Shown here piece after piece: positions 29,012-43,748 of a stretch of DNA of 64,000 bases. The DNA comes from a bacterium. Its GTDB lineage: Bacteria; Armatimonadota; Fimbriimonadia; Fimbriimonadales; Fimbriimonadaceae. Position 1 is the stretch's first letter, and the number at the start of each line of letters is the position of its first letter. Both the position numbers and the translations under genes were made by a program. The notes under the pieces are model-generated. The model saw only the letters and a list, made by a program, of their open reading frames with translations. It did not search any database and was not told the DNA's origin. The stretch covers positions 62,001-126,000 of the forward strand of contig PNMZ01000005.1 in assembly GCA_013823945.1 (NCBI GenBank), read 5' to 3'.

Positions 29012-29029
29012 AATTGAAGAAGTAGCTTG

Positions 29030-30052
29030 ATGAGTAGCACGTACTCCCCGAATAAGAAGGTCACTTTGAAAGACATCGCTCATGCGGTGGGGGTGAGTCA
29101 ATTTACGGTTTCGGTGGTTTTGAATGGGGCGAAGTCGAACACACGGGTTTCGGACGGTACGCGGGCGAAGATTTTGGATGCAGCTCGGGAGATGGGGTAT
29201 TTGCCCAACGCCTTAGCGAGGGCGTTGCGTAATCAAGCGACGAATATTTTAGGATTGTATTTTGGTTACGGGCACTTGGAGCCTCATGATCCGTTCCATG
29301 CGGAAGTTTTGACAGGTTTGCAGCGTGGTTGCGAGATCTGTGAGAAGGATTTGATGATCCATTACTCATTCCACCGTTACGGTGTTGACGAGATTTTTGC
29401 CGAATTGGCAGGGGGAAAGATTGATGGTTTGGTTTTGATTGCTTCTCCTGATGATCCTTTGGTGGAGCGTTTGCGCGGATCGAAGTTGTCATTTGTGGCA
29501 ATGACGGATGTGATTCCGGGGGTTCCGGGAGTGATCGCGGATGATGCGGCGGGTTCGGTGGAGATTGCTCGGCATTTAGCGGGTTTGGGGCATAAGAAAG
29601 TGATGTATCGATCATGTCCGGGCCAGTCGGACTCGGCTTTGCGGAGAGAGATTGCTTTTGTTGAAGAAGCAAAGCGATTTGGGATCGAGACAGTAAGTGT
29701 TAAGACTTCTGATTGGAAGGGCCAGTTGGATTCGGCTGAGATTGATCTTTTGGCTCGGCGCAAAGAAAATGGGATTACAGCGGCGGTGTGTTGGGGTGAT
29801 CCCAGTGCCTATGCTTTGTTGAGTTATTGTAAATCGAACGATATTCGTGTCCCTAGCGGTCTAGCTGTAGTTGGTTTCAATGGCATTGAGATGCCTTATG
29901 AGCCAGCACAAGTTTTGACTACGGTTCGGGCGAATTGGGCACTTGTTGCTCAGCGTGCCGTTCAACTGCTCGTCGATCAACTTGACGGCAAGACGGAGAT
30001 TTCTGATCTCACAGTTTTGCCCGTTGAGTTCTGTCCGGGTGAAACCTCATGA
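29030..30052 (+). CDS. LacI-family transcriptional regulator
   Basis: This 340-residue repressor has the LacI helix-turn-helix at 11-34 ([20 protein letters not shown]) with a hinge helix ([11 protein letters not shown]). A periplasmic-binding-protein-like sensor domain follows. ATG 29030 is preferred over the adjacent TTG because GAAGAAG lies upstream. Three operators and a promoter sit just before it, so it is very likely autoregulated and also controls ribokinase. The ligand is unknown, probably a sugar or sugar derivative made or used by the operon. Confidence 0.94.
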
Positions 30053-31153: not shown

Positions 31154-33085
31154 ATGACTCCTTCAGGCCCAGATTCTGCACAAAAGTCGCTCTCAAACGG
31201 CTATTTGTTCAAAGAACTTTGGAAGGTTGTTTCGCCTTACAAGGGCAAATTTGTATTGAGTATTTGTTTTTTGTTACTCGCGGTTCCATTGGGTCAGTTC
31301 GCTATTTTCTTGACGCGTGATGTAACGAATCAAGCCCTAAATACAACTAGTCTGACAATTCAACAACGATGGGACACGGTTATTTCGATCATCGTGTTAC
31401 AGTTTTGTTTTTGGCTAGCGAGTACGCTGCTTTCAACTTGGAGAGAGGTTCTTGAATGGTATGTTTCGATGCGGGCAACGCTTGATTTACGGCTTAGATA
31501 TTATCGGCATCTTCATTCTTTGCCGATGAGTTTTCTGAGTCAGTCGGGGGCAGGGGCGCATCTGTACCGCGCCACGGCAGATATGGTTTCGTTGTTCCGA
31601 GTGGGGAATCGCGTTGAGACTTCGACGCCGGCCGGGCAAATGCCTCCGGAGAGTAAAGAGGTTCAATCTTCTTATTATTATTCCAATGACGTTGACCCTT
31701 ATGATCCGGGAGTCATGGGAATTATTACACGGTCAATGCCTTTGTTTGTTGAGACTCTTTATGCTATGGGTTGGGGGGCTGTTTTGCTTTATCTCATTGA
31801 TCCGATGTTGTCGCTATTTCTAGTGCTTTACATTGTTCCGTTTTCGCTGGTTTCATATTTTGCGTTCAATCGGGTTCGAGTTGCAGCTTTTGCCTTTAAA
31901 GAAGGGGTTGAGAACGAATCAAAAGTACTTCGGGACAGTATTGCCGGTTTGCGAACGATGAAGGCATTTGGGCGGACAACGCTTCAGTTGAAGAAGTACT
32001 TTTTGGCAGCGGGTCAGGCACGCCGAAGTGGGGTTGGGATGTATGGGGAAATGGTGCGAACGCAAAATCTGCTTCAGCAGTTTATGCGGTGGGCTTTTAC
32101 AACAGTTGTTTATGTTTATTTGGCACGGCAGATCATTTTGGGCGAGGCGACGATTGGAGATTGGGTCGCAACAGCCCTGCTTATCGAAGCGGCGCAGATG
32201 CCGTTGCAAAACTTTGTTCAGTTGACGCAATTGATCAAGATGCAGTTGGTTCCGATCCGCCGGATTTTTTCAACATTGAGTGTCGAGCCTACATTGGTTG
32301 ACCGAGCGGATGCAGTCGTTCTTGGAGAGATTTCGGGGAATCTGGAGTTTAAGGAGTTAACTTTTGGGTATCGGGAAGATGAGCCGATTCTTCACGAACT
32401 GTCACTCAAAGTTGAACCGGGTGAATATCTGGGAATTGTAGGACCAAGTGGTGCGGGGAAAAGCTCGCTGGTTAACTTAGCACTAAGACTTTATGGCCCT
32501 GACTCGGGTCAGGTGCTGGTGGATGGACATGATTTGCAGTCCGTTCAACTGAAGAGTTATCTCGCGCAAGTGGCGTCGGTACCTCAATCAACTTATCTTT
32601 ATGCGGGAACGATTGCGGAGAATGTGTTTTTTGGCAATCCTGATGCTACGGAAGAAGATTTGCAGAGGGTTTTGGAGGAGTCTGGGGCATCGGCGTTTTT
32701 GAAATACCACACGGATGGGGTTGACACGGTCATTTCAGAATCCGCTCCGATTTCGGGTGGGGAGCGCCAGCGCATTGGCATTGCGCGTGCATTGATTCGC
32801 GATCCCAAGATTTTGTTTTTGGATGAAGCGACAGCGAGTCTTGACCCGGCGACAGAGGACGCGATTCTGGAGACGATTCAGCGGATCCGTGGTGGGCGAA
32901 CGATATTGACGATTGCTCATCGGCTCAAGGCGGTGACTCAGTGCGATCGGATCATCGTTTTGGATAAGGGGAGAATTGTCCAAGAGGGGACTCACGATCA
33001 GCTCTTGGCGACGGATGGACTTTACAGGAAATTGTGGGAGCAGCAGTGGGAGATTGGGAAAGTGAGGGGTGAGGTTCATGACTGA
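31154..33085 (+). CDS. ABC exporter half-transporter (permease-ATPase fusion)
   Basis: This 643-residue protein has an N-terminal six-helix membrane domain (about 30-345) with an insert near 150-190, and a C-terminal ATPase. Walker A is GPSGAGKS, the signature is SGGERQRIGIARAL and Walker B is ILFLDEATAS. It is type IV exporter architecture as in multidrug or lipid exporters. The second half-transporter at 33078 overlaps its end, so the two probably form a heterodimer. The substrate is unknown; neighbours suggest a surface peptide, pilin-like or glycan compound. Confidence 0.95.
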   Translation: MTPSGPDSAQKSLSNGYLFKELWKVVSPYKGKFVLSICFLLLAVPLGQFAIFLTRDVTNQALNTTSLTIQQRWDTVISIIVLQFCFWLASTLLSTWREVLEWYVSMRATLDLRLRYYRHLHSLPMSFLSQSGAGAHLYRATADMVSLFRVGNRVETSTPAGQMPPESKEVQSSYYYSNDVDPYDPGVMGIITRSMPLFVETLYAMGWGAVLLYLIDPMLSLFLVLYIVPFSLVSYFAFNRVRVAAFAFKEGVENESKVLRDSIAGLRTMKAFGRTTLQLKKYFLAAGQARRSGVGMYGEMVRTQNLLQQFMRWAFTTVVYVYLARQIILGEATIGDWVATALLIEAAQMPLQNFVQLTQLIKMQLVPIRRIFSTLSVEPTLVDRADAVVLGEISGNLEFKELTFGYREDEPILHELSLKVEPGEYLGIVGPSGAGKSSLVNLALRLYGPDSGQVLVDGHDLQSVQLKSYLAQVASVPQSTYLYAGTIAENVFFGNPDATEEDLQRVLEESGASAFLKYHTDGVDTVISESAPISGGERQRIGIARALIRDPKILFLDEATASLDPATEDAILETIQRIRGGRTILTIAHRLKAVTQCDRIIVLDKGRIVQEGTHDQLLATDGLYRKLWEQQWEIGKVRGEVHD

Positions 33086-34892
33086 AGCAGAGGCACTGAA
33101 ATCTTCGGAAAGTCATCGTGAGAACTCTTGGAAAGCCCTTTTATTTGTATTGCGATTTTTGAAGCCTCAACTTCGAAGATTATTCCTTGTTTGTTTGATA
33201 GATATTTCGATTTCTTTTATCAATTTGGCGATTCCCTGGTTTGGGAAGTTTATCATTGACCAGGCGTTTCCGCAAAGGGATTGGGATTTGACTTTGCAGA
33301 TTGCGGGGGGGATTGCCCTATTGGTCGCAACGGTTTATGGACTTTCGGCTTTGCGAACGTATCTCTACAACACGGCAGAGTTGTTGATTGGACTTGGGAT
33401 TCGGCGGGCCATGTATGGTCATTTGCAGAAGCTCTCCATTGATACAATTGAGTCGGTTCCGGTGGGGCAGCAGCAGTTTAGGATTACGACGGATGCGGAT
33501 CGGATTGCCCATATGTTGGTACGGATTTTGCCGACAGCAGTCATGCTTGTTGAATTCGCATTGATATTGTCGATTGCTTCTTATATTGAGCCAGTTTTGA
33601 CGATGATTGTCATGGGCTTTTTGATCCCTTGGACAGTTTTGTTCATTTGGGTAACTCATTACGGGCGCATTTATGACCGTCGACGTTTGCGGTTTACGGA
33701 GTTGCGTGATTCTGCAATTTTGCAAGCAGCATCAAGCTTTTCTACGATTAAGTCTTACATGCGGGTGAGGTCAGAGGTTCGGCGGAACGGCGTGGCGAAC
33801 ATTATGGTTCAGCGAGTTGCAATTCAAGGCTATTTGATTTTAGTGGGATTTGAATTGGTGACGCAGAGGTTGATCCCATATTTGAAGTCTATTACGATTT
33901 ATTTGTTCTTGATTCGGCGAGTAGTTTTTGGGGAGATGACTCTGGGGATGACGGTTCCACTGATCGCCTATTTGTCGCGTGTGACGTTTCCGCTTGAGCG
34001 GATTGTAAATTTTGGGTGTTGGATTTGGCAGACGATGGTTTCTGCGGAGCGGTTGATGCATATCATGTTGACCGATCCAGCGGTTAAGGATCGTCCCGAC
34101 GCAGTGAAACTGGGGGATGATTTTGTCGGGAATGTTTCGTTCGAAGGAGTGAGCTTTGGACGTGAGAGCGTGGGCAATGTTCTAACGGAGGTGGGTTTTG
34201 ATTTAAGCCCAGGAAAGACTACGGCGATCGTTGGCCCGAGCGGGGCAGGTAAGTCCACAGCATTGGGATTGATGCTTCGGTTCCAAGATCCGTGTGAGGG
34301 CAGGATTACGGTTGATGGGGTTGATCTTAGGGATGTTGACCGAACGAGTTATCTGAGAAAGGTGGGAACGGTGATGCAAGATACGTTCATCTTTTCTGGT
34401 TCGGTGGCAGAGAATTTGCGGATTTCCAAGCCGGATGCTTCGGATGAAGAACTTTGGGCGGTGCTTGATCAAGTGGAACTAAGGGAATGGGTGGAAGCCC
34501 AAAAAGATGGCCTGGCGCATGATTTGGAAGGGGGGACGGGGTTGTCGGCGGGGCAGAAACAGCGCATTGGAATCGCCCGGGCGATCTTGCCTTCGCCCAA
34601 GATTTTGCTCCTCGATGAACCCACATCGGCTCTAGATGTCGAGACAGAAGCGCAGTTGGTAGAAACACTGCGGCAAGTTGGCAAGGGGCGAACTGTGTTT
34701 GTGGTGACGCATCGTTTGGAGACGATTGTTGACGCTGACGAGATTTTGGTCTTGGATCGGGGTGTAGTGGTGGAGCGAGGCACGCATGGAGAGTTGCAAG
34801 ATTTGGGCGGATTGTATGCTGACCTTTACCGATTGCACCGGACTTTTGAAACAGTTGATGGGAAACAGACTATGAATGAGGTGACACAGTGA
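33078..34892 (+). CDS. ABC exporter half-transporter (permease-ATPase fusion)
   Basis: This 604-residue partner of the previous protein has six membrane helices and an ATPase domain with GPSGAGKST and LLLDEPTSALD. The signature is LSAGQKQRIGIARAI rather than LSGGQ, a mild variation that could make the two nucleotide sites unequal. ATG 33078 with GAGG before it is preferred over GTG 33069. It overlaps the preceding gene by eight bases and the next by four, so the three are translationally coupled. Confidence 0.94.
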   Translation: MTEAEALKSSESHRENSWKALLFVLRFLKPQLRRLFLVCLIDISISFINLAIPWFGKFIIDQAFPQRDWDLTLQIAGGIALLVATVYGLSALRTYLYNTAELLIGLGIRRAMYGHLQKLSIDTIESVPVGQQQFRITTDADRIAHMLVRILPTAVMLVEFALILSIASYIEPVLTMIVMGFLIPWTVLFIWVTHYGRIYDRRRLRFTELRDSAILQAASSFSTIKSYMRVRSEVRRNGVANIMVQRVAIQGYLILVGFELVTQRLIPYLKSITIYLFLIRRVVFGEMTLGMTVPLIAYLSRVTFPLERIVNFGCWIWQTMVSAERLMHIMLTDPAVKDRPDAVKLGDDFVGNVSFEGVSFGRESVGNVLTEVGFDLSPGKTTAIVGPSGAGKSTALGLMLRFQDPCEGRITVDGVDLRDVDRTSYLRKVGTVMQDTFIFSGSVAENLRISKPDASDEELWAVLDQVELREWVEAQKDGLAHDLEGGTGLSAGQKQRIGIARAILPSPKILLLDEPTSALDVETEAQLVETLRQVGKGRTVFVVTHRLETIVDADEILVLDRGVVVERGTHGELQDLGGLYADLYRLHRTFETVDGKQTMNEVTQ

Positions 34893-36106
34893 TACCGAAG
34901 TATCCAGCTGAATGGCGGACTCAATCGCTTTGGAAAAAGCGGTTTTACGCCCGGTACATGAAGTGGCTGGAACGGCTCGGATATACGGTCGTTACACTCG
35001 TCCTCGGTGCGTTTGTTTTCGCCTTTAATTATCGGGTTGATGATGTGATCAGCGCGGATAAGGTGGCAATCAAGGCGGCGTCGACAGTCATGACTCTTGA
35101 GGAACCAGTTTTAGTTGTCAGAAGTATGGTTCGGAGTTTTGATGAAGTGACGGTGGGTGAACCTGTATTGGAGATTATTCGAGGTGCGGAGGCAATTGAT
35201 CGCTATGTCGCGGGGCAAGCGTTGGGGCGCTTGGGGGCTAAAACTGAATTTGCAATGCCCAAGCCTGAAATCATCACGGCCGGTTCGGCGGGTGTCTTTG
35301 TGATTGACGAAAGTTTCATTGGTCAGGTGGTTGATCAAGGTGAGACGATCTGTGAGATCCGGAATTATGATGAACTGGAGTTGACGGCGGCGTTGGCGGG
35401 TCAGGGAGTCGCGGCGGCCAAAGCAGGCGGTGTTGCAAAACTTAAAAATCCTGCAGTCTCATCGCCGAATTCAATCTTGGTTCGGGGAAAAACGGCAGGA
35501 GGAGCTCTGGTTTCGGGTCGGCTTTTTTCTCCAGAACAGGCTGAACTGATCGGTTCATCAGTGAAAGGAATGGCGCTGGGGGTTCGCGATGATTTACCGC
35601 TAGAAGTTGAGAGTTTGGTGCAGTTGCAAATTGATGCGGATTTGAGTTTGGGAAGTGGAGGTGGCGAGAACTCGATCCAAGCTGACCCCCCAGCTTCTAG
35701 TCAGTTTCAAGCGGATGTTGTGGTCGGAAAACACTTGGCGGTGATTCAATTTGCCCGGTTGTCACAAGCAAAGCAGGAAGAAGTGAACAGGGCAATCCAG
35801 TCGGCTCTCAATCAGCGGTCGGTCGTTGATTGGTCGGGTTCAGCCCAGAAAGTGGATTCGTTGAGCGGATTGAATACTGTTTTCCAAGTGAATGCGGTTC
35901 CTAGCAAAGGTTCATCGGGGAGCGAGAAGGTGGAAGGAACAGCAATTTCTCGAACTTTTGAGGCAAAACTGAAGATTAAGAGCCCATCAGAAGCGTTGAA
36001 GCGAGTTGTTCGAGACGCGGATGTTTTGGGGCAGACAGTGACGGTTAGGGTGGAGCTGAAGACAGGTGATCGGCCGATTGCCATGCTTTTGTTGAAACGA
36101 TCATGA
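34889..36106 (+). CDS. Membrane-anchored HlyD-like adaptor protein
   Basis: This 405-residue protein has a cytoplasmic basic N-terminus, one membrane helix at about 33-50 (YTVVTLVLGAFVFAF) and a large periplasmic part. The segments EEPVLVVRSMVRSFDEVTVGEPVLEI and AGSAGVFVIDESFIGQVVDQGETICEI resemble the paired half-lipoyl motifs of membrane-fusion proteins. The rest is beta-rich. The GTG start overlaps the ABC stop by four bases (GTGA), supporting a role as adaptor of that exporter. No outer-membrane factor is nearby. The family call is from pattern, not alignment. Confidence 0.7.
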   Translation: MIPKYPAEWRTQSLWKKRFYARYMKWLERLGYTVVTLVLGAFVFAFNYRVDDVISADKVAIKAASTVMTLEEPVLVVRSMVRSFDEVTVGEPVLEIIRGAEAIDRYVAGQALGRLGAKTEFAMPKPEIITAGSAGVFVIDESFIGQVVDQGETICEIRNYDELELTAALAGQGVAAAKAGGVAKLKNPAVSSPNSILVRGKTAGGALVSGRLFSPEQAELIGSSVKGMALGVRDDLPLEVESLVQLQIDADLSLGSGGGENSIQADPPASSQFQADVVVGKHLAVIQFARLSQAKQEEVNRAIQSALNQRSVVDWSGSAQKVDSLSGLNTVFQVNAVPSKGSSGSEKVEGTAISRTFEAKLKIKSPSEALKRVVRDADVLGQTVTVRVELKTGDRPIAMLLLKRS

Positions 36107-38223
36107 TTTTTAATACAGGAAAGGAAGAAATTGGGCAGTTGAGCGATGAACGAATTGATCACCCGAGTCATCCGCTTTATGCAGAGCGGGTCTATGCCGG
36201 AATTTTGGGAAAGTTGATCGGAGTTTATTTGGGCCGCCCGGTCGAAAATTGGTCGCACGAGAAGATTGTCGAGGAGTTTGGCGAGATTCGATATTACGTC
36301 CATGAGCAGCGTGGTCGGCGGCTTATTATTACGGATGACGATATCTCTGGGACTTTGATTTTTTTGCGAGCACTTCAGGATTACGGCTACTCAGCCGATC
36401 TTTCGGCGGCAGATATTGGTCAGACTTGGCTGAATTATTTGATTGAAGAGAAGACGATTTTGTGGTGGGGTGGCCTTGGGAATTCGACCGAGCACACGGC
36501 TTATTTGCGCTTGAAGAGCGGGGTGAAGGCACCGGAATCAGGTTCGGCGGCCTTGAATTCTAAGATTGTGTCGGAGCAGATCGGGGCGCAGATATTTATA
36601 GACGGTTGGGGATTAATTTGTCCGGGGGATCCACGGCTGGCGGCAGATTTTGCCCGAAAAGCGGCGAGTGTGAGTCACGACGGCGAGGCAATTTATGGGG
36701 CACAGGTCGTGGCGGCGATGGTTGCGGAGGCCTTTGTAGAGCAAGACATTGACCGCTTGTTGGACACGGGGACTTCGATGATTCCGCCGGACTGTCAGGT
36801 GCGGAAATTGATTGACGATTTGCGGGAGTGGCATATTCAAGATCGGGATTGGCGCCGATCGCTTTCGTTGTTGCACGACCAGTACGGCTATGACAAGTAC
36901 AAGGGTCAATGCCATTTGATTCCTAATCATGGGTTAATCATTTTGTCACTCTTGCATGGTGCGGGTGACTTTGACGAATCGATGATGATTGTGAATACTA
37001 GCGGCTGGGATACGGACTGCAATTCAGGGAATGTGGGCGCAATTTTAGGGGTTCGGAACGGTTTGAAGGCATTCGACAAGCAGGATTGGCGCGGGCCAGT
37101 TGCGGATCGGCTTTATTTGCCATCGGCTGACCCAGGGCGTTCGATTACGGACGCAGCTCGGGAGACGATTGAGGTTGTGAACGCAGGGTTGCGGATCAAG
37201 GGTTTGCCTGGGATTTCGCCGAAAGGGGGAGCACGATTTCACTTTGAGTTACCGGGTTCGGTACAGGGATTCCGGGTTCAGAATCCGGAAATGGGGTGGT
37301 TGGAGCCAGACCGGCTGGGAATTGGGCTCGAAAGAAGTGGACTGAGGGTCGGCAGAACGGTGGGTTCTCCGGAGGCAGCACGGATTGCTACTCCTACGTT
37401 TATTCCGCCGGATACAAAGGATATGGTTACGGGCTATGTGCTTGTGGCATGCCCGACGCTCTTTAGCGGGCATATAGTTGAAGTGGATTTGGCGGCAATT
37501 TCTGATTCTGCTTCTGGTCGACTCTTTATTGAGTGCTACGACTCGGAAGACGAAACACGGAGGATTTTTGGCCCAGAGTTCAGGCTGGAATCTGGCGAGG
37601 CGAATCGGATGAAGTGGGAGGTGCCAGAAACAGGCGGGTACCCGATTCATCACATTGGCATCGAATTGGAGGAAGGGGAGATGTTTATGGAGCGTATGGA
37701 CTGGTCGAACATTCCGGCGACCGCTTGGCCGCCAGTCGAAGGAACCATGTGGTACCGGGCTTGGGCCAATGCGCTTGATCGATTTGCGCCGGTGCGTGAT
37801 CGGTATGAATACATGGCAATGAATTCTGGAACTGGATTCTTGGCACAGGGGCATCGTGAGTGGCAGGATTACAGTGTGAGTTGCCGGATTACGCCGAGAA
37901 TGGCTGAATCTGGGGGAATCGCGGTTCGTTATCAAGGGACTCGGCGCTACTACGCCTTTGTTTTTGGCTCCCCGGGTGAAGTCAGGTTGGAAAAAGCTCT
38001 TGACGGGGTGACGTCGTTGGCTCGGGTGCCATTCAACTGGAAGCCATTTGAGGATTATGAGGTCTCGGTTGAGGCGGTTGGAAATAAGCTACGGCTGTTT
38101 ATAGATGGCGAGTTGATTTTACAAACTTCGGATGAGGATGATCCATTGGAGTCCGGCGGATTTGCATTTGTGGTGACATCTGGTTGCATGGGAGCGGGGA
38201 CGCCGAGGATAGAGCCCCGATGA
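36103..38223 (+). CDS. ADP-ribosylglycohydrolase-family protein with C-terminal concanavalin-like domain
   Basis: This 706-residue protein has no signal peptide. Residues 25-360 match the ADP-ribosylglycohydrolase (DraG/ARH) fold: GILGKLIGVYLGRP, the metal motif T77-D-D-D80, SHDGEAIYGAQ at 191-201 and SGWDTDCNSGNVGAI near 300-314. Residues 560-706 resemble a 3-keto-disaccharide hydrolase / LamG-like sandwich (GGIAVRYQGTRRYYAFVFG, LRLFIDGELIL). Family members include ADP-ribosyl-protein hydrolases and enzymes in sugar or nucleoside clusters. With GH127 next to it, a glycoside or N-glycoside substrate is plausible. The start overlaps the previous stop as ATGA. Confidence 0.87.
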   Translation: MIFNTGKEEIGQLSDERIDHPSHPLYAERVYAGILGKLIGVYLGRPVENWSHEKIVEEFGEIRYYVHEQRGRRLIITDDDISGTLIFLRALQDYGYSADLSAADIGQTWLNYLIEEKTILWWGGLGNSTEHTAYLRLKSGVKAPESGSAALNSKIVSEQIGAQIFIDGWGLICPGDPRLAADFARKAASVSHDGEAIYGAQVVAAMVAEAFVEQDIDRLLDTGTSMIPPDCQVRKLIDDLREWHIQDRDWRRSLSLLHDQYGYDKYKGQCHLIPNHGLIILSLLHGAGDFDESMMIVNTSGWDTDCNSGNVGAILGVRNGLKAFDKQDWRGPVADRLYLPSADPGRSITDAARETIEVVNAGLRIKGLPGISPKGGARFHFELPGSVQGFRVQNPEMGWLEPDRLGIGLERSGLRVGRTVGSPEAARIATPTFIPPDTKDMVTGYVLVACPTLFSGHIVEVDLAAISDSASGRLFIECYDSEDETRRIFGPEFRLESGEANRMKWEVPETGGYPIHHIGIELEEGEMFMERMDWSNIPATAWPPVEGTMWYRAWANALDRFAPVRDRYEYMAMNSGTGFLAQGHREWQDYSVSCRITPRMAESGGIAVRYQGTRRYYAFVFGSPGEVRLEKALDGVTSLARVPFNWKPFEDYEVSVEAVGNKLRLFIDGELILQTSDEDDPLESGGFAFVVTSGCMGAGTPRIEPR

Positions 38224-39905
38224 CTCGGATTTCGGTGAGCTGGGGAAACAGTGAATTGGGAGATGTATGCCGATTAAGCGAAGCGACTCGCCTCCGCACT
38301 TTTGTGCGGGATGAGGATTCGGAACCTCTGAAACTCTTCCATCCGGATCAGAAGGATCATTGCTTGACGGGGGATTGGTATGGGGAGCATGCGGGTAAGT
38401 GGATGGTGGCGGCGGGATTAACCTATCGGTCGAATCCATCGGAAGATTGGCGCGAACGGATTGCTTTGGTAGTTAATTTTTTGGCAGATCAGCAAGAGGA
38501 TTCGGGATATCTGGGGACATATGCAGTGGATTCCGCGGCAAGGTTTACGCATCGTGATGCAGAGAACGTTCGGACTTGGGATTTGTGGATTCATGCCTGG
38601 TTGCTCTTGGGATTTTTGGAAGTTGAGGAGATTGCTGGGTGCGAACAGGCGAGGGTTTGTGCGCAGAGGATTGGAGAGTTGTTACTTGCGACATTTGGAG
38701 GCGGGCGGAGTCCGGTTCGGCAGGGGAATCATGAGGGCTTGAGCAGTCTGGTTTTGCTAGAGCCGCTGGCTTTGATGTCCGTTCGGTGGGGGGATAAGAG
38801 GTATTCAGAGTTGGCGGAGCGAATTTTTGACCAAGCGGTTGAATCGGGACTCAAATTTTTGGAAGATGTTGATGCATCGAAGGTGGGGACCGGAAAGTCG
38901 TATCAGCTCTTGTGGTGTATGAAGGGGTTGCTTGAACTTGGGATGGCGACGGGGCGGACAGATTTATTGGATATTGTTGAGCGACTTTGGAAAAATATCC
39001 GCGATTTCCATTTGACTCCAATGGGTGGGCCGTGGGGGGGGATTGCGACACACAAAGAGGTGTTCAATCCGGTGGACTTTTTTGATCCCTGTGGTTTGGT
39101 GGAGACTTGTTCTTCCGTTACTTGGATGATATTGTCTCATCGGCTGTTTGAGGTAACGGGCGATCCTCAATATTTGGTGGAGGTGGAGAGAACACTCTAC
39201 AATTCGGTGTTGGGGGCAGTGGATGCAAATGGGTCGGATTGGTGCTATTTTACTTTTCCAAACGGCCGGCGGAACAACACATATCATTGGGCTTGCTGCA
39301 AGTCGAGTGGGGCGATTGGATTGGCTTATGCAGCGCTTTGTTTTGTAGCCGAGTTTGATGGAGTTTGTTTCTTGACTGGGTTTGAAGACTTTAGTTTTGA
39401 GACACCGAGTTGGGGAAGGGTTGAGATGGTGCTTGGCGCGGGCGGAGCAAAGATTTTGGTTGATCAGTCGATGGCGTTGAATCTTTTTGTTTCGCCGATG
39501 ATTGAGCTTGATTCTTTGCCAGAGGGGGCGATTTTGGATGGTCGGTGGTTGAGATTTCCGGAGATTTCGGGTTCGGTAGAGATACATTTTCGGGAGAAGT
39601 TGAACATTGAGCAAAAGGTGCATTCGGTTGATCATCATGGTCAGGAGATTGTTCGGGAAGAATATGTTTGTGCTAGGGTTGGTCGGTACGTCTATGCGGC
39701 AGAGAAGTTTGAGGGGTATCGAACACAAGAGACCTTGCGATTACCCCAGCTCGCACCGGAATCAGTTTTCCGAGTGGTCGATGACGGCATATTGGAACTG
39801 CGGCAGGCAGGTCGAGATGTGATTAAAATGACACCCTATTGGAAATGCGGGGGCAGGCACGACGGGGCATGGCGGACGACTTGGTTGCAGGTGGCATGGC
39901 AGTGA
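38220..39905 (+). CDS. Glycoside hydrolase family 127-like (DUF1680) enzyme
   Basis: This 561-residue protein has an (alpha/alpha)6-like helical N-terminal domain and a beta-rich C-terminus. The zinc and catalytic residues of GH127 beta-L-arabinofuranosidases are present: E295 and C297 in VETC, and C359-C360 in WACC. In Bifidobacterium HypBA1 the equivalent cysteine is the nucleophile. No signal peptide is seen, so it acts in the cytoplasm on an imported oligosaccharide or glycoside. The start ATG 38220 overlaps the preceding stop (ATGA); the frame is open 12 codons upstream. Confidence 0.88.
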   Translation: MTRISVSWGNSELGDVCRLSEATRLRTFVRDEDSEPLKLFHPDQKDHCLTGDWYGEHAGKWMVAAGLTYRSNPSEDWRERIALVVNFLADQQEDSGYLGTYAVDSAARFTHRDAENVRTWDLWIHAWLLLGFLEVEEIAGCEQARVCAQRIGELLLATFGGGRSPVRQGNHEGLSSLVLLEPLALMSVRWGDKRYSELAERIFDQAVESGLKFLEDVDASKVGTGKSYQLLWCMKGLLELGMATGRTDLLDIVERLWKNIRDFHLTPMGGPWGGIATHKEVFNPVDFFDPCGLVETCSSVTWMILSHRLFEVTGDPQYLVEVERTLYNSVLGAVDANGSDWCYFTFPNGRRNNTYHWACCKSSGAIGLAYAALCFVAEFDGVCFLTGFEDFSFETPSWGRVEMVLGAGGAKILVDQSMALNLFVSPMIELDSLPEGAILDGRWLRFPEISGSVEIHFREKLNIEQKVHSVDHHGQEIVREEYVCARVGRYVYAAEKFEGYRTQETLRLPQLAPESVFRVVDDGILELRQAGRDVIKMTPYWKCGGRHDGAWRTTWLQVAWQ

Positions 39906-41041
39906 TGGTTCAGGTTGGCTATTCGGGCCCGGATGTTCGTGCGGATGTCGAGATCACGGCGGAACCTGCGGCTAAGTTTGGATTTGATTTTGAATCGAGT
40001 TGCTCTCCGCTTTACGATGATTTGATTCGAGATCAGGTTTGGGCGGTTTCGAGAGAGTTTGGCGAACCGGCACTTCACTTGACATGTATAGATTCTGGAG
40101 CTTTGCCGATGGTTTGGTCGGCTCGCCTTACGGCCGTTATTTGTTTGAGTTTAGGTTTAGAGTTTCCGGCTGTCGTTTCGGACCGTAAATTTTCGGGGAA
40201 TGGATTGCGACGAAGTCGGCTGTATGTGCCAGCGAATACGCCCAAGTTGATTCCGAATGCCCCGCTGTTCTCTCCGGATGCAGTTATTTTGGATTTAGAG
40301 GAATCGGTACATATTGACCGAAAGGTGGAGGCATTAGCGTTGGTGGCTTCGGTGAGCAAGGCAGTGGATTGGGGGAACATCGAATTGATGGTTCGGATCA
40401 ATTCTGGCTCTTTGGGGTTGAGTGAGTTGATGACTTTGGGGAGTTCGTCGGTGGGGACGTTTGTGATTCCTAAAGTTGGTTCACCGGAAGACTTGGCGTC
40501 CATTCTGAATGTGTTGGATTTTTGCGAATCACAAGCAAGAATTATTCCGTTGATTGAGTCGGCATTGGGGGTTGAGAACGCTTTCGAAATTGCGGGATGC
40601 TCGCCGCGGGTAACGGCGATTTCGCTTGGATTGGAGGATTATGTGGCGGACATTGGGGCGACACGGACGGTGGACCAGAGTGAAAGCTGGTTTGCAAGAT
40701 CCCGAGTATTGAATGCGGCGCGGGCAGCGGGAGTGATGCCGTTGGCTTCGGTTTTTCCTCGATTTCAGGTTGAGGACGATGTGGAAGAGTACGCCCGAGG
40801 GGCGAGAATGGCAGGATACGAAGGGATTGGATGCATTCACCCTAATCAAATTGGGCCAGCGCACAAGGGATTTGTGGCGAGTGGCGCGGAATTAGAACGG
40901 GCGAGACGCATCATCGAGGCTTATGAGCAAGCAGAAGCGGAAGGGAAGGGGGCGGTTGGCGTTGATGGGGCGATGGCGGATTTGCCGACATATGAGAGAG
41001 CGAAGCGGGTTGTGCGGCTTGCGGAAGGAGGAATGCAATGA
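39902..41041 (+). CDS. citDE: Citrate lyase gamma-beta fusion (CitD-CitE)
   Basis: This 379-residue protein joins two citrate lyase subunits. Residues 1-90 match CitD, the acyl carrier: a serine (S8) sits where the phosphoribosyl-dephospho-CoA group is attached, followed by FGFDF...LIRDQVWAV and IDSGALPMVWSARLTA. Residues 100-379 match CitE (HpcH/HpaI family): RSRLYVPANTPKL, ILDLEESV, ESALGVENAFEIA and SLGLEDYVADI. CitE splits the citryl-carrier into acetyl-carrier and oxaloacetate. The start is taken as GTG 39902, overlapping the GH127 stop as GTGA with AGGTGG upstream; ATG 39896 is an alternative. The alpha subunit follows directly. No citC, citX or citG is in the window. Confidence 0.86.
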   Translation: MMVQVGYSGPDVRADVEITAEPAAKFGFDFESSCSPLYDDLIRDQVWAVSREFGEPALHLTCIDSGALPMVWSARLTAVICLSLGLEFPAVVSDRKFSGNGLRRSRLYVPANTPKLIPNAPLFSPDAVILDLEESVHIDRKVEALALVASVSKAVDWGNIELMVRINSGSLGLSELMTLGSSSVGTFVIPKVGSPEDLASILNVLDFCESQARIIPLIESALGVENAFEIAGCSPRVTAISLGLEDYVADIGATRTVDQSESWFARSRVLNAARAAGVMPLASVFPRFQVEDDVEEYARGARMAGYEGIGCIHPNQIGPAHKGFVASGAELERARRIIEAYEQAEAEGKGAVGVDGAMADLPTYERAKRVVRLAEGGMQ

Positions 41042-42588
41042 TCCAAAATGCAGTTGGGCGGTTGATTCCAGATTTAAGTGACCGGGGTCTAGTGGGATTT
41101 CGCGGGGTTGATCAGCCGCCTTTGAAGTCGAACCAGGTTGCACCGGCGATTCGGACTTGCTCAGAGTTTCCGGCGAATGGGGATAAGCGGGTTGAGTCCT
41201 TGAGGGAGGCTTTGAGGATGTCTGGATTGCGTGATGGGATGGTGGTTTCGACGCACCATCATTTGCGCAATGGAGACGCGGTCGCGATCCAGCTCTTTGC
41301 GGCGATTCGGTCGCTTGGCGTGCGCGATATTGTGTGGTTTCCGAGTGCGGTTTTTCCTTGCCATGAGGAACTCATTCCTTTTTTGGAAGACGGAACGATT
41401 CACCACATTGAGGGCAGTTTGAATGGCCCATTGGGTGACTATGCGAGCGGAGGGAGGATGCGAGGGTTGGCGGTTTTGCGATCGCATGGTAATCGGTACC
41501 GTTCGATTCAGGATGGGGATGTTCATGTTGATGTAGCGGTGATTGCGGCTCCGGCGAGCGATCACTTTGGGAACTGTACGGGGGCATTGGGGCCGTCAGC
41601 ATGTGGTGGGTTGGGGTTTGCGATGGCGGACGCCGAGTATGCAGACCGAGTGATTGTTGTGACGGATCATCTTGTTGACTTCCCGTGTGTTCCGTGGCAG
41701 ATAGCGGGCAATCATATTGACCATGTGGTGGAAGTTAATACAATTGGAGATTCGACTCAGATTGTCGCCGGGACTACGGTACTGACGAGCTCTCCAGAGC
41801 GACAACGGATAGCCCGATTGGCAGCGGAGTTTGTCGATGCGGCGGGAATTGTTCGAGACGGATGGTCGTTCCAGGCAGGGGCGGGGGGAATCTCGCTCAG
41901 TTTCGTAGTCTTTGTCCAGGAAATCATGGCTCGGCGAGGTGTTCGAGCGGGATTTGCTCGAGGGGGTAGCACTAAGTATTTGGTGGAGATGCTTGAATCG
42001 GGTCAATTGGGGGCGATTTTGGATGGGCAGACGTTTGATTTAGAGGGGGTGCGGAGTATGCGGGAGAATCGGAGTCATGTGATGACGACCCCTTGGAATA
42101 GTTACTGCGCTCATACGAAGGGAAATTTTGCTTCGATGTTGGACTGTGCGGTTCTGGGAGCGACCGAGGTTGATGTGAATTTTAATGCGAACGTGGTGAC
42201 CCATTCTGATGGTCGGTTGCTTCATGGGATTGGGGGTTGGCAGGACGCTTTGTTGAGTCAGTGCACGATTTTGGCTGTGCCTTCTTTGCGGAATCGAGTT
42301 CCGATTATTCGGGATGAACTGACGACGGTATGTGGTTCGGGTGAGTTGATTGATGTTGTGGTGACGGAACGGGGAATTGCCGTTAACCCTCGGCGAATGG
42401 ATTTGATCGAGGCAGTGGAGGGGTCAGATTTGCCGTTGAAGTCGATTGCAGAGATTCAGGCAGAGTCTGAAAAGTTAGCGGGTGGAAAGCCTGCTCGTGT
42501 TGATTTGGACGATGAATTGATTGGACTAGTGACTTGGATTGACGGAACGGTGATTGACACGGTGCGGCGGGTGAGAACAAGGGCATGA
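41038..42588 (+). CDS. citF: Citrate lyase alpha subunit (citrate:acyl-carrier transferase)
   Basis: This 516-residue protein matches CitF along its length: GLRDGMVVSTHHHLRNGD, GNCTGALGPSACGGLGFAMADA, GAGGISLSFVVFVQE, GGSTKYLVEMLESG and a C-terminal GSGELIDVVVTERGIAVNP. CitF exchanges acetyl on the CitD carrier for citrate, forming citryl-carrier. Its N-terminal 35 residues diverge. The ATG overlaps the citDE stop. Together the two genes would form a complete lyase for citrate or a related 3-hydroxy acid if the prosthetic group is made elsewhere. Confidence 0.93.
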   Translation: MIQNAVGRLIPDLSDRGLVGFRGVDQPPLKSNQVAPAIRTCSEFPANGDKRVESLREALRMSGLRDGMVVSTHHHLRNGDAVAIQLFAAIRSLGVRDIVWFPSAVFPCHEELIPFLEDGTIHHIEGSLNGPLGDYASGGRMRGLAVLRSHGNRYRSIQDGDVHVDVAVIAAPASDHFGNCTGALGPSACGGLGFAMADAEYADRVIVVTDHLVDFPCVPWQIAGNHIDHVVEVNTIGDSTQIVAGTTVLTSSPERQRIARLAAEFVDAAGIVRDGWSFQAGAGGISLSFVVFVQEIMARRGVRAGFARGGSTKYLVEMLESGQLGAILDGQTFDLEGVRSMRENRSHVMTTPWNSYCAHTKGNFASMLDCAVLGATEVDVNFNANVVTHSDGRLLHGIGGWQDALLSQCTILAVPSLRNRVPIIRDELTTVCGSGELIDVVVTERGIAVNPRRMDLIEAVEGSDLPLKSIAEIQAESEKLAGGKPARVDLDDELIGLVTWIDGTVIDTVRRVRTRA

Positions 42589-43748
42589 TGATGATGACGA
42601 CGATGATTGCGGCTGGTTTATTGGGACAGGCGAGTGGTGGAGGCTACTCGATTGATCGAGATCGGCTGAAGATGGCGAATAATCGACTGCGGAACCACAT
42701 TCACCGAGGTAATTTGGCGGGGGCGGTGACTTTGGTTTTTCTTGATGGGAAAGTGGTTTCGCACGAATCGTTTGGTTGGTCGGATTTGGAATCAAAGACC
42801 TTGATGAAGCGGGATACGATTTTCCAGGTGATGTCCATGACCAAGCCGGTAACTGCGGCGGCGGTGATGATCTGTGTGGAGCGGGGATTGTTGAGCTTGG
42901 ATGATCCGGTAGAGCGATATTTGCCGCAGTTTGAGGGGATCCAGGTGAAAGGTGAGGATGGTGAGTTAAGGGCACCTTCGTCAAGAATGACGATACGGCA
43001 CTTGGTGAGCCATACGAGTGGGTTGGCTTCGGATGATCCGGGCGGGATTTCGGACGAAGATAAATCCAAGTTGACATTGGGAGAATACGCAAAGTTGCTT
43101 GGAACGGAACCATTGCGGAGTGACCCGGGGACGGTGATTCGGTATTCGGGGGTGGGGTTCTCCACGGCGGCGGCGATTATTGAAGTTGTTACAGGTCGGA
43201 AATTTGACGAATTTGTTGGGGCGGAGATTTTTGTTCCGCTGGGAATGAAGGAGACATTCTTCTTTTTGCCAGAGAGACTGCGGCCTAGGCTAGCTCAGGT
43301 TTACACGAAGGATAAGGGTGCGTTGACTCCTTTTGGTCATGATCGATATAGGGTGGGGGCAAAGTTTGCGAATGGGGCGGGAGGGTTGTATTCGACGGCG
43401 GCGGATATGGGTCGCTTTATGGAGGCTTTTGCCGGAGGTAATCGGAAGTCGGCGTTGTCTCCGCGCGGGTTGGACGTGATGACCCGGTTGCAGACTGGGA
43501 ACTTGCTCAGTGATGGAAATGATGGGAGGGGTTATGGGGTTGGTTGGTCGGTCGTTCGTGGTTCGTTGGGGCAGGGGACACTCCGGAGTGTAGGATCTTT
43601 TGGACACACGGGAGCATTTGGAACGGAATTTTGGCATGATCGGGAGACGGGGATTTCGCTGGTGTTTTTGGCGCAGACGTTCTTTATATCCGAGGATGCC
43701 CGTCGACAGTATGCGACGATGGTGAATGCGAGTTTGATGAAGGAATAG
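42585..43748 (+). CDS. Secreted serine hydrolase, beta-lactamase/class C PBP family
   Basis: This 387-residue protein has an export signal (TTMIAAGLLGQASG). The serine active site is S84-M-T-K87 and the second motif is Y187-S-G. The third is FGHTGAFG, as in esterases, DD-peptidases and 6-aminohexanoate-type hydrolases of this superfamily. HTSGLASDD is a further family mark. It ends the long operon, overlapping citF by four bases (ATGA). It could remove ester groups from the polymer used by the cluster; the true substrate is unknown. Confidence 0.92.
   Translation: MMMMTTMIAAGLLGQASGGGYSIDRDRLKMANNRLRNHIHRGNLAGAVTLVFLDGKVVSHESFGWSDLESKTLMKRDTIFQVMSMTKPVTAAAVMICVERGLLSLDDPVERYLPQFEGIQVKGEDGELRAPSSRMTIRHLVSHTSGLASDDPGGISDEDKSKLTLGEYAKLLGTEPLRSDPGTVIRYSGVGFSTAAAIIEVVTGRKFDEFVGAEIFVPLGMKETFFFLPERLRPRLAQVYTKDKGALTPFGHDRYRVGAKFANGAGGLYSTAADMGRFMEAFAGGNRKSALSPRGLDVMTRLQTGNLLSDGNDGRGYGVGWSVVRGSLGQGTLRSVGSFGHTGAFGTEFWHDRETGISLVFLAQTFFISEDARRQYATMVNASLMKE

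Follow-up and report, generated by a model that had tools for sequence, protein, structure and literature searches.

A fused CitD-CitE protein with arginine at the carrier serine position, followed by CitF, as a candidate carrier-independent citrate lyase

In the window, the whole stretch of 64,000 nucleotides that was analysed, a CitD-like and a CitE-like domain are fused in one protein, the gene is followed by citF, and the position of the carrier serine is occupied by arginine. CitDE-CitF most likely works like a citrate lyase without a carrier. The ATP-independent citrate lyase is the textbook example of dependence on a unique prosthetic group and a dedicated pathway of maturation; since the carrier serine is lost and the genes that make the prosthetic arm are missing, the window enzyme probably acts on ordinary free coenzyme A. 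The reading of CitDE-CitF as a carrier-independent lyase, by which the substrate would be both transferred and cleaved on free CoA, was given a probability of about 0.6.

The citDE gene (39896..41041, + strand) was assigned by Pfam, NCBIfam and its relatives. The frame was uninterrupted, with possible starts at ATG 39896, GTG 39902 and ATG 39905 and the stop at 41041; residues are numbered here from ATG 39896, except for the PF06857 span, which is counted from 39902. The CitD-like domain (residues 1–92, 39896..40171, +) matched PF06857 at residues 14–79 with 29.5 bits (cut-off 25.1), and the second part of the protein, a CitE-like TIM-barrel domain (residues 104–381, 40205..41038, +), matched PF03328 (HpcH/HpaI-CitE) with 133.7 bits. 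The next gene, citF (41038..42588, +), overlaps the citDE stop and encodes a citrate lyase alpha-type acyl/CoA transferase (PF04223, 399.7 bits). The first-pass annotation had read CitD joined to CitE and then CitF, and had proposed a CitD profile check within residues 1–90; both the order and the profile match were borne out. In the AlphaFold model (mean pLDDT 95.0), the CitD-like domain formed a high-confidence alpha/beta fold, and residue 15 was in a loop just before the strand 17–24. The NCBIfam equivalog scores of the window proteins were all below the cut-offs, at 15.4 bits for citD (63.5), 185.2 bits for citE (443.4) and 455.5 bits for citF (TIGR01584, 501.45), which was a first sign of a non-standard enzyme.

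The fusion was confirmed as real. A search of 291 genomes revealed it in 17 further genomes of the phylum, all but one from the same family; 16 of these genes were open frames of similar length, and one was split over two contig ends. Within the window's genus the fusion was patchy (4/8 genomes). A scan of public genome contigs showed, among the matches listed, dozens of MAGs with fused relatives, spread over more than 10 phyla, namely Chloroflexota, Planctomycetota, Bacteroidota, Ignavibacteriota, Calditrichota, Cloacimonadota, Krumholzibacteriota, Gemmatimonadota, Acidobacteriota, Caldifarciminota (WOR-3), Fidelibacterota and others. In these wide-family relatives, fused CitDE was mostly followed by CitF, and the pairing was near-constant. 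Both PF06857 and PF03328 were matched in 77/77 aligned fused proteins from many phyla, and the family extends beyond the matches listed. Because the same open fusion was found in the 17 related genomes and in many phyla, a frameshift or an assembly artefact was ruled out as its source. The fixed 1:1 ratio of CitD to CitE would be a trivial consequence of the fusion. The fusion is widespread and not peculiar to the window organism. No paper on a CitD-CitE fusion was found in the literature searched, which speaks only weakly for novelty.

When the window protein was aligned with E. coli CitD, its Arg15 (CGT, 39938..39940, +) fell where the canonical protein has the serine that carries the phosphoribosyl-dephospho-CoA group (Ser14 of CitD). 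The window's relatives read G-x-x-V/I-R-S/A/G-D, compared with GTLESGD in E. coli CitD. Among the 77 fused proteins, the attachment column was Arg in 70 and Lys in 2, with Asn, Gly, Gln and Ser in a single protein each and a gap in the last one; the column after it was Ser in 64 proteins, Ala in 9 (including the window protein) and Gly in 2, and the Asp two columns past the attachment site was kept in 76. The first-pass annotation had named S8 (S10 from ATG 39896; codon 39923–39925) as the carrier serine bearing phosphoribosyl-dephospho-CoA. This claim was abandoned, since column 10 varies freely among the 77 fused proteins, the canonical position is Arg, and CitG and CitX are missing. Two other sites were rejected: Ser16, a shift of one residue, is impossible in the window protein, which has Ala16; and Cys18 as a thiol carrier is present in 55 of the 77 fused proteins, but the window protein has Val there. 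There was no second CitD in the window genome, where the fusion was the sole PF06857 match and an E. coli CitD query found the same place only.

Separate, unfused CitD proteins with Lys for serine were observed at L107:8762-8986 (TLEKGD) and L096:7680-7946 (RQSKGD), and one with Asp for serine at L111:8744-9004 (DDDSD); their genomes were without CitX. The separate CitD of L112 appears, in our reading of the upstream frame, to have Arg at the serine position. As some separate CitDs are also without the serine, its loss is not a mere by-product of the fusion.

CitX and CitG were absent from the whole window genome, which is 99.83% complete, and from all 18 genomes when the relatives were added (0/18 for each; 14/18 at least 90% complete). 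The first-pass annotation had noted that these maturation genes were not at the locus and had proposed a genome search for them; the absence thus extends to the entire genome. Among the 22 genomes of the wide set, many of which are MAGs of unspecified completeness, CitX and CitG were each found once, both in G306, so that they were absent from 39 of the 40 fusion genomes. G306 carries a Ser-type citD-citE-citF-citXG-citC operon (L126:6237-11431), whose separate CitD reads FESSD, in addition to its fused CitDE-CitF, and it served as an internal control. In 16 further genomes, one of which was left out of the count for its truncated CitD, CitX was present in 7/8 with a Ser-type CitD and in 0/7 with the serine lost, a pattern close to perfect, although the samples lack independence and MAGs of unspecified completeness are frequent among them. 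The CitC profile PF08218 had a sole weak match in the window genome (21.6 bits, 65/182 positions); it lies far from the locus, in a frame of 169 aa that is probably a CoaD-type nucleotidyltransferase. The CitC matches were judged spurious, being short, weak and in CoaD-size frames. Thus neither CitG and CitX nor a CitC ligase that acetylates the carrier was found in the window genome.

A published study (PMC3832036) supplied the Mg-binding and catalytic residues of the CitE superfamily, which were mapped through E. coli CitE; E135, R167, E221, D248 and D362 of the window barrel were invariant in 77/77 fused proteins. Adjoining the metal site, DLEDSV reads DLEESV in the window (D136E, 40301-40303), and Glu as the second acidic residue of DLED occurred in 4/77 rows, all from the window's genus. 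In the early barrel, the fused proteins have R108 (100%) and K117 (88%), where canonical CitE has mostly Met and Asn/Ala; these residues fit altered CoA handling, but are not proof of it. Structure search matched the CitE barrel part of CitDE only, and its neighbours were free-CoA lyases (CLYBL, malyl-CoA lyase and citramalyl-CoA lyase, Z about 31–33). This likeness is not diagnostic, because canonical CitE aligned to the same structures. In comparisons of three close pairs, the CitD domain had a dN/dS of 0.09–0.15, similar to that of the CitE part, which indicates purifying selection on the CitD domain.

In the CitF tree, CitF of the fused systems formed its own clade of 67 rows (support 100/99). 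Between this clade and canonical CitF came the archaeal systems without the serine and a single fused row on a long branch, with support that was partly weak. Fused-type CitF kept 73 of the 102 columns that are invariant in canonical CitF, and a few were consistently replaced.

The window genes from 31154 to 43748, all on the + strand and with start/stop overlaps, are ordered ABC-ABC-HlyD-like-ADP-ribosylglycohydrolase-GH127-CitDE-CitF-serine hydrolase. The cluster members beside CitDE and CitF, all conserved, are two ABC transporters with membrane and ATPase domains (31154..33085 and 33069..34892), a putative HlyD-like membrane-fusion protein with a weak Pfam match only (34889..36106), an ADP-ribosylglycohydrolase-fold protein (36103..38223; PF03747, 190.9 bits), a GH127-like glycosidase whose stop overlaps the citDE start (38184..39905; PF07944, 123.1 bits) and a class C beta-lactamase-family serine hydrolase (42585..43748; PF00144, 266.1 bits). 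This eight-gene order was kept in every same-family relative with enough flank, in divergent genera. The relative from another family (G176, L035) had a LeuC/LeuD-IDH-HD context instead of the eight-gene cluster. A LacI-family regulator (29027..30052, +; PF00356, PF13377) and a pseudopilin-like gene lie upstream, and the position of the regulator suggests a link to the cluster. Promoter and terminator scans gave no more matches than shuffles. The first-pass annotation had suggested a variant lyase in this setting, and the CitDE fusion with CitF, without maturation genes and near the LacI gene and glycosidases, agrees with that suggestion.

In the wide family, 37 of the 68 loci had isocitrate/homoisocitrate-dehydrogenase-like, aconitase/homoaconitase-like, PrpD or HD-domain genes as neighbours; many of the 68 loci are on short contigs, and the neighbours were nearly always on the same strand. 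These tricarboxylate-type neighbours point to a tricarboxylate substrate. At L053:2833-8103 and similar loci, the CitDE-CitF operon contained an isocitrate-dehydrogenase-like protein, a homoaconitase-like protein, PrpD and an HD protein; an HD-domain protein of about 184 aa recurred at 22 wide-family loci. A role of CitDE-CitF as a replacement for citrate synthase was not supported, with citrate synthase present in 28/32 genomes. In the window's family, citrate is an uncertain substrate, since the neighbours are transporters and glycosidases and not citrate-cycle genes.

In the proposed mechanism, acetyl-CoA would supply the CoA that CitF transfers to citrate or a related tricarboxylate (citrate + acetyl-CoA -> citryl-CoA + acetate), and the CitE barrel would split citryl-CoA into acetyl-CoA and oxaloacetate, with acetyl-CoA going back to CitF. 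CoA would turn over as a free cofactor, so that CitX, CitG and CitC would not be needed. The CitD-like domain may be kept as a built-in docking module that sits between the two catalytic parts, and the conserved Arg, replacing the Ser of the phosphodiester-linked group, may hold the phosphates of CoA non-covalently. The parts that we infer are that the enzyme uses free CoA, that the Arg binds it, that citrate is the substrate and in which direction the reaction runs. Dimroth and Eggerer reportedly found in 1975 that isolated canonical subunits already act on free acetyl-CoA and citryl-CoA, so that the step to free CoA would be chemically small. Free CoA thioesters are the substrates of those stand-alone CitE-like enzymes that have been characterised (PMC3832036).

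A free-CoA lyase of the same architecture could have a substrate other than citrate. In the wide family this might be homocitrate or a different 2-hydroxy-tricarboxylate, and in the window cluster a sugar-derived acid. This reading was considered unlikely, but it is a real rival because the role of the window cluster is unexplained. It draws on a homoaconitase score of 764.7 bits among the wide-family neighbours (cut-off 529.9), although this score is no proof of the substrate; other neighbours were closest to homoisocitrate dehydrogenases, and two dehydratase types were present. In the window's family, the GH127 and ADP-ribosylglycohydrolase genes take the place of these neighbours, and the missed citE and citF equivalog cut-offs also fit a different substrate. 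However, the canonical invariant columns retained by CitF argue against this reading, and no route leading to such an acid was found.

It seems improbable that the CitD domain still carries a covalent group, attached to Ser16, Ser10 or another residue by an unrecognised enzyme. The fold is kept and constrained, and the frequent Ser16 would suit such a role; Ser after the Arg could be modified outside the window's clade. However, this residue is Ala in the window and 8 other proteins and Gly in 2, Ser10 is unconserved, and the absence of CitG and CitX also weighs against a covalent carrier; PF01874 takes in MdcB as well, which corresponds to CitG in the malonate decarboxylase system. It is hardly credible that the fused gene is a decaying, inactive relic: the loss of the carrier serine and the maturation genes and the patchy presence in the genus would be expected of one, but the frames are open in the relatives, the catalytic residues are invariant and the cluster is conserved, and dN/dS of about 0.1 in both domains led to the rejection of this reading.

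The carrier-independent CitDE-CitF lyase may belong to a second, widespread citrate lyase class of bacteria and archaea, a proposal that we put forward tentatively and at somewhat less than even odds. In such a class, the carrier domain would have been turned to non-covalent CoA handling by the change of Ser to Arg/Lys, without maturation by CitG/CitX. It would comprise CitDE with CitF and, in some archaea, a serine-less separate CitD; it would be found in tricarboxylate operons in more than 10 phyla and would have been taken into the transporter/glycosidase cluster of the window's family. If this is true, retention of the carrier fold without the group across a broad class would illustrate how such a domain can take on another role. 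Cheap cleavage of citrate-like acids would be open to many uncultivated organisms, for which ATP-citrate lyase is usually the only criterion in judging the carbon cycle. The annotation of the fused genes as carrier-dependent citrate lyase would then be misleading.

Among the known systems, the citryl-CoA enzymes of Hydrogenobacter require ATP and have their relative in ATP-citrate lyase rather than in CitE/CitF. The likeness of this citryl-CoA synthetase and citryl-CoA lyase to the proposed mechanism is the two-step cleavage of citrate via free citryl-CoA (PMC9560492). Malonate decarboxylase has a homologous carrier fold in MdcC (PF06857) and a related transferase in MdcA (PMC5534430); unlike the window protein, MdcC retains Ser25 with the prosthetic group, and its partner is a crotonase-fold decarboxylase and not a CitE barrel. 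The free-CoA CitE-like lyases (malyl-CoA lyase, citramalyl-CoA lyase and CLYBL) share the TIM barrel and the catalytic residues, but they are stand-alone enzymes without a CitD domain or CitF (PMC3832036), whereas the window CitE is fused to CitD and adjoins CitF. Compared with CitDEF of E. coli and Klebsiella, the window system has CitD fused to CitE, Arg for Ser, no CitX, CitG or CitC, and scores below the NCBIfam equivalog cut-offs; for want of the carrier serine, CitX/CitG and CitC, it is not filed as a canonical citrate lyase. It nevertheless shares with CitDEF the folds of CitF, CitE and CitD, the order D-E-F and the catalytic residues of CitE, with CitF alongside and a CitD-type domain present.
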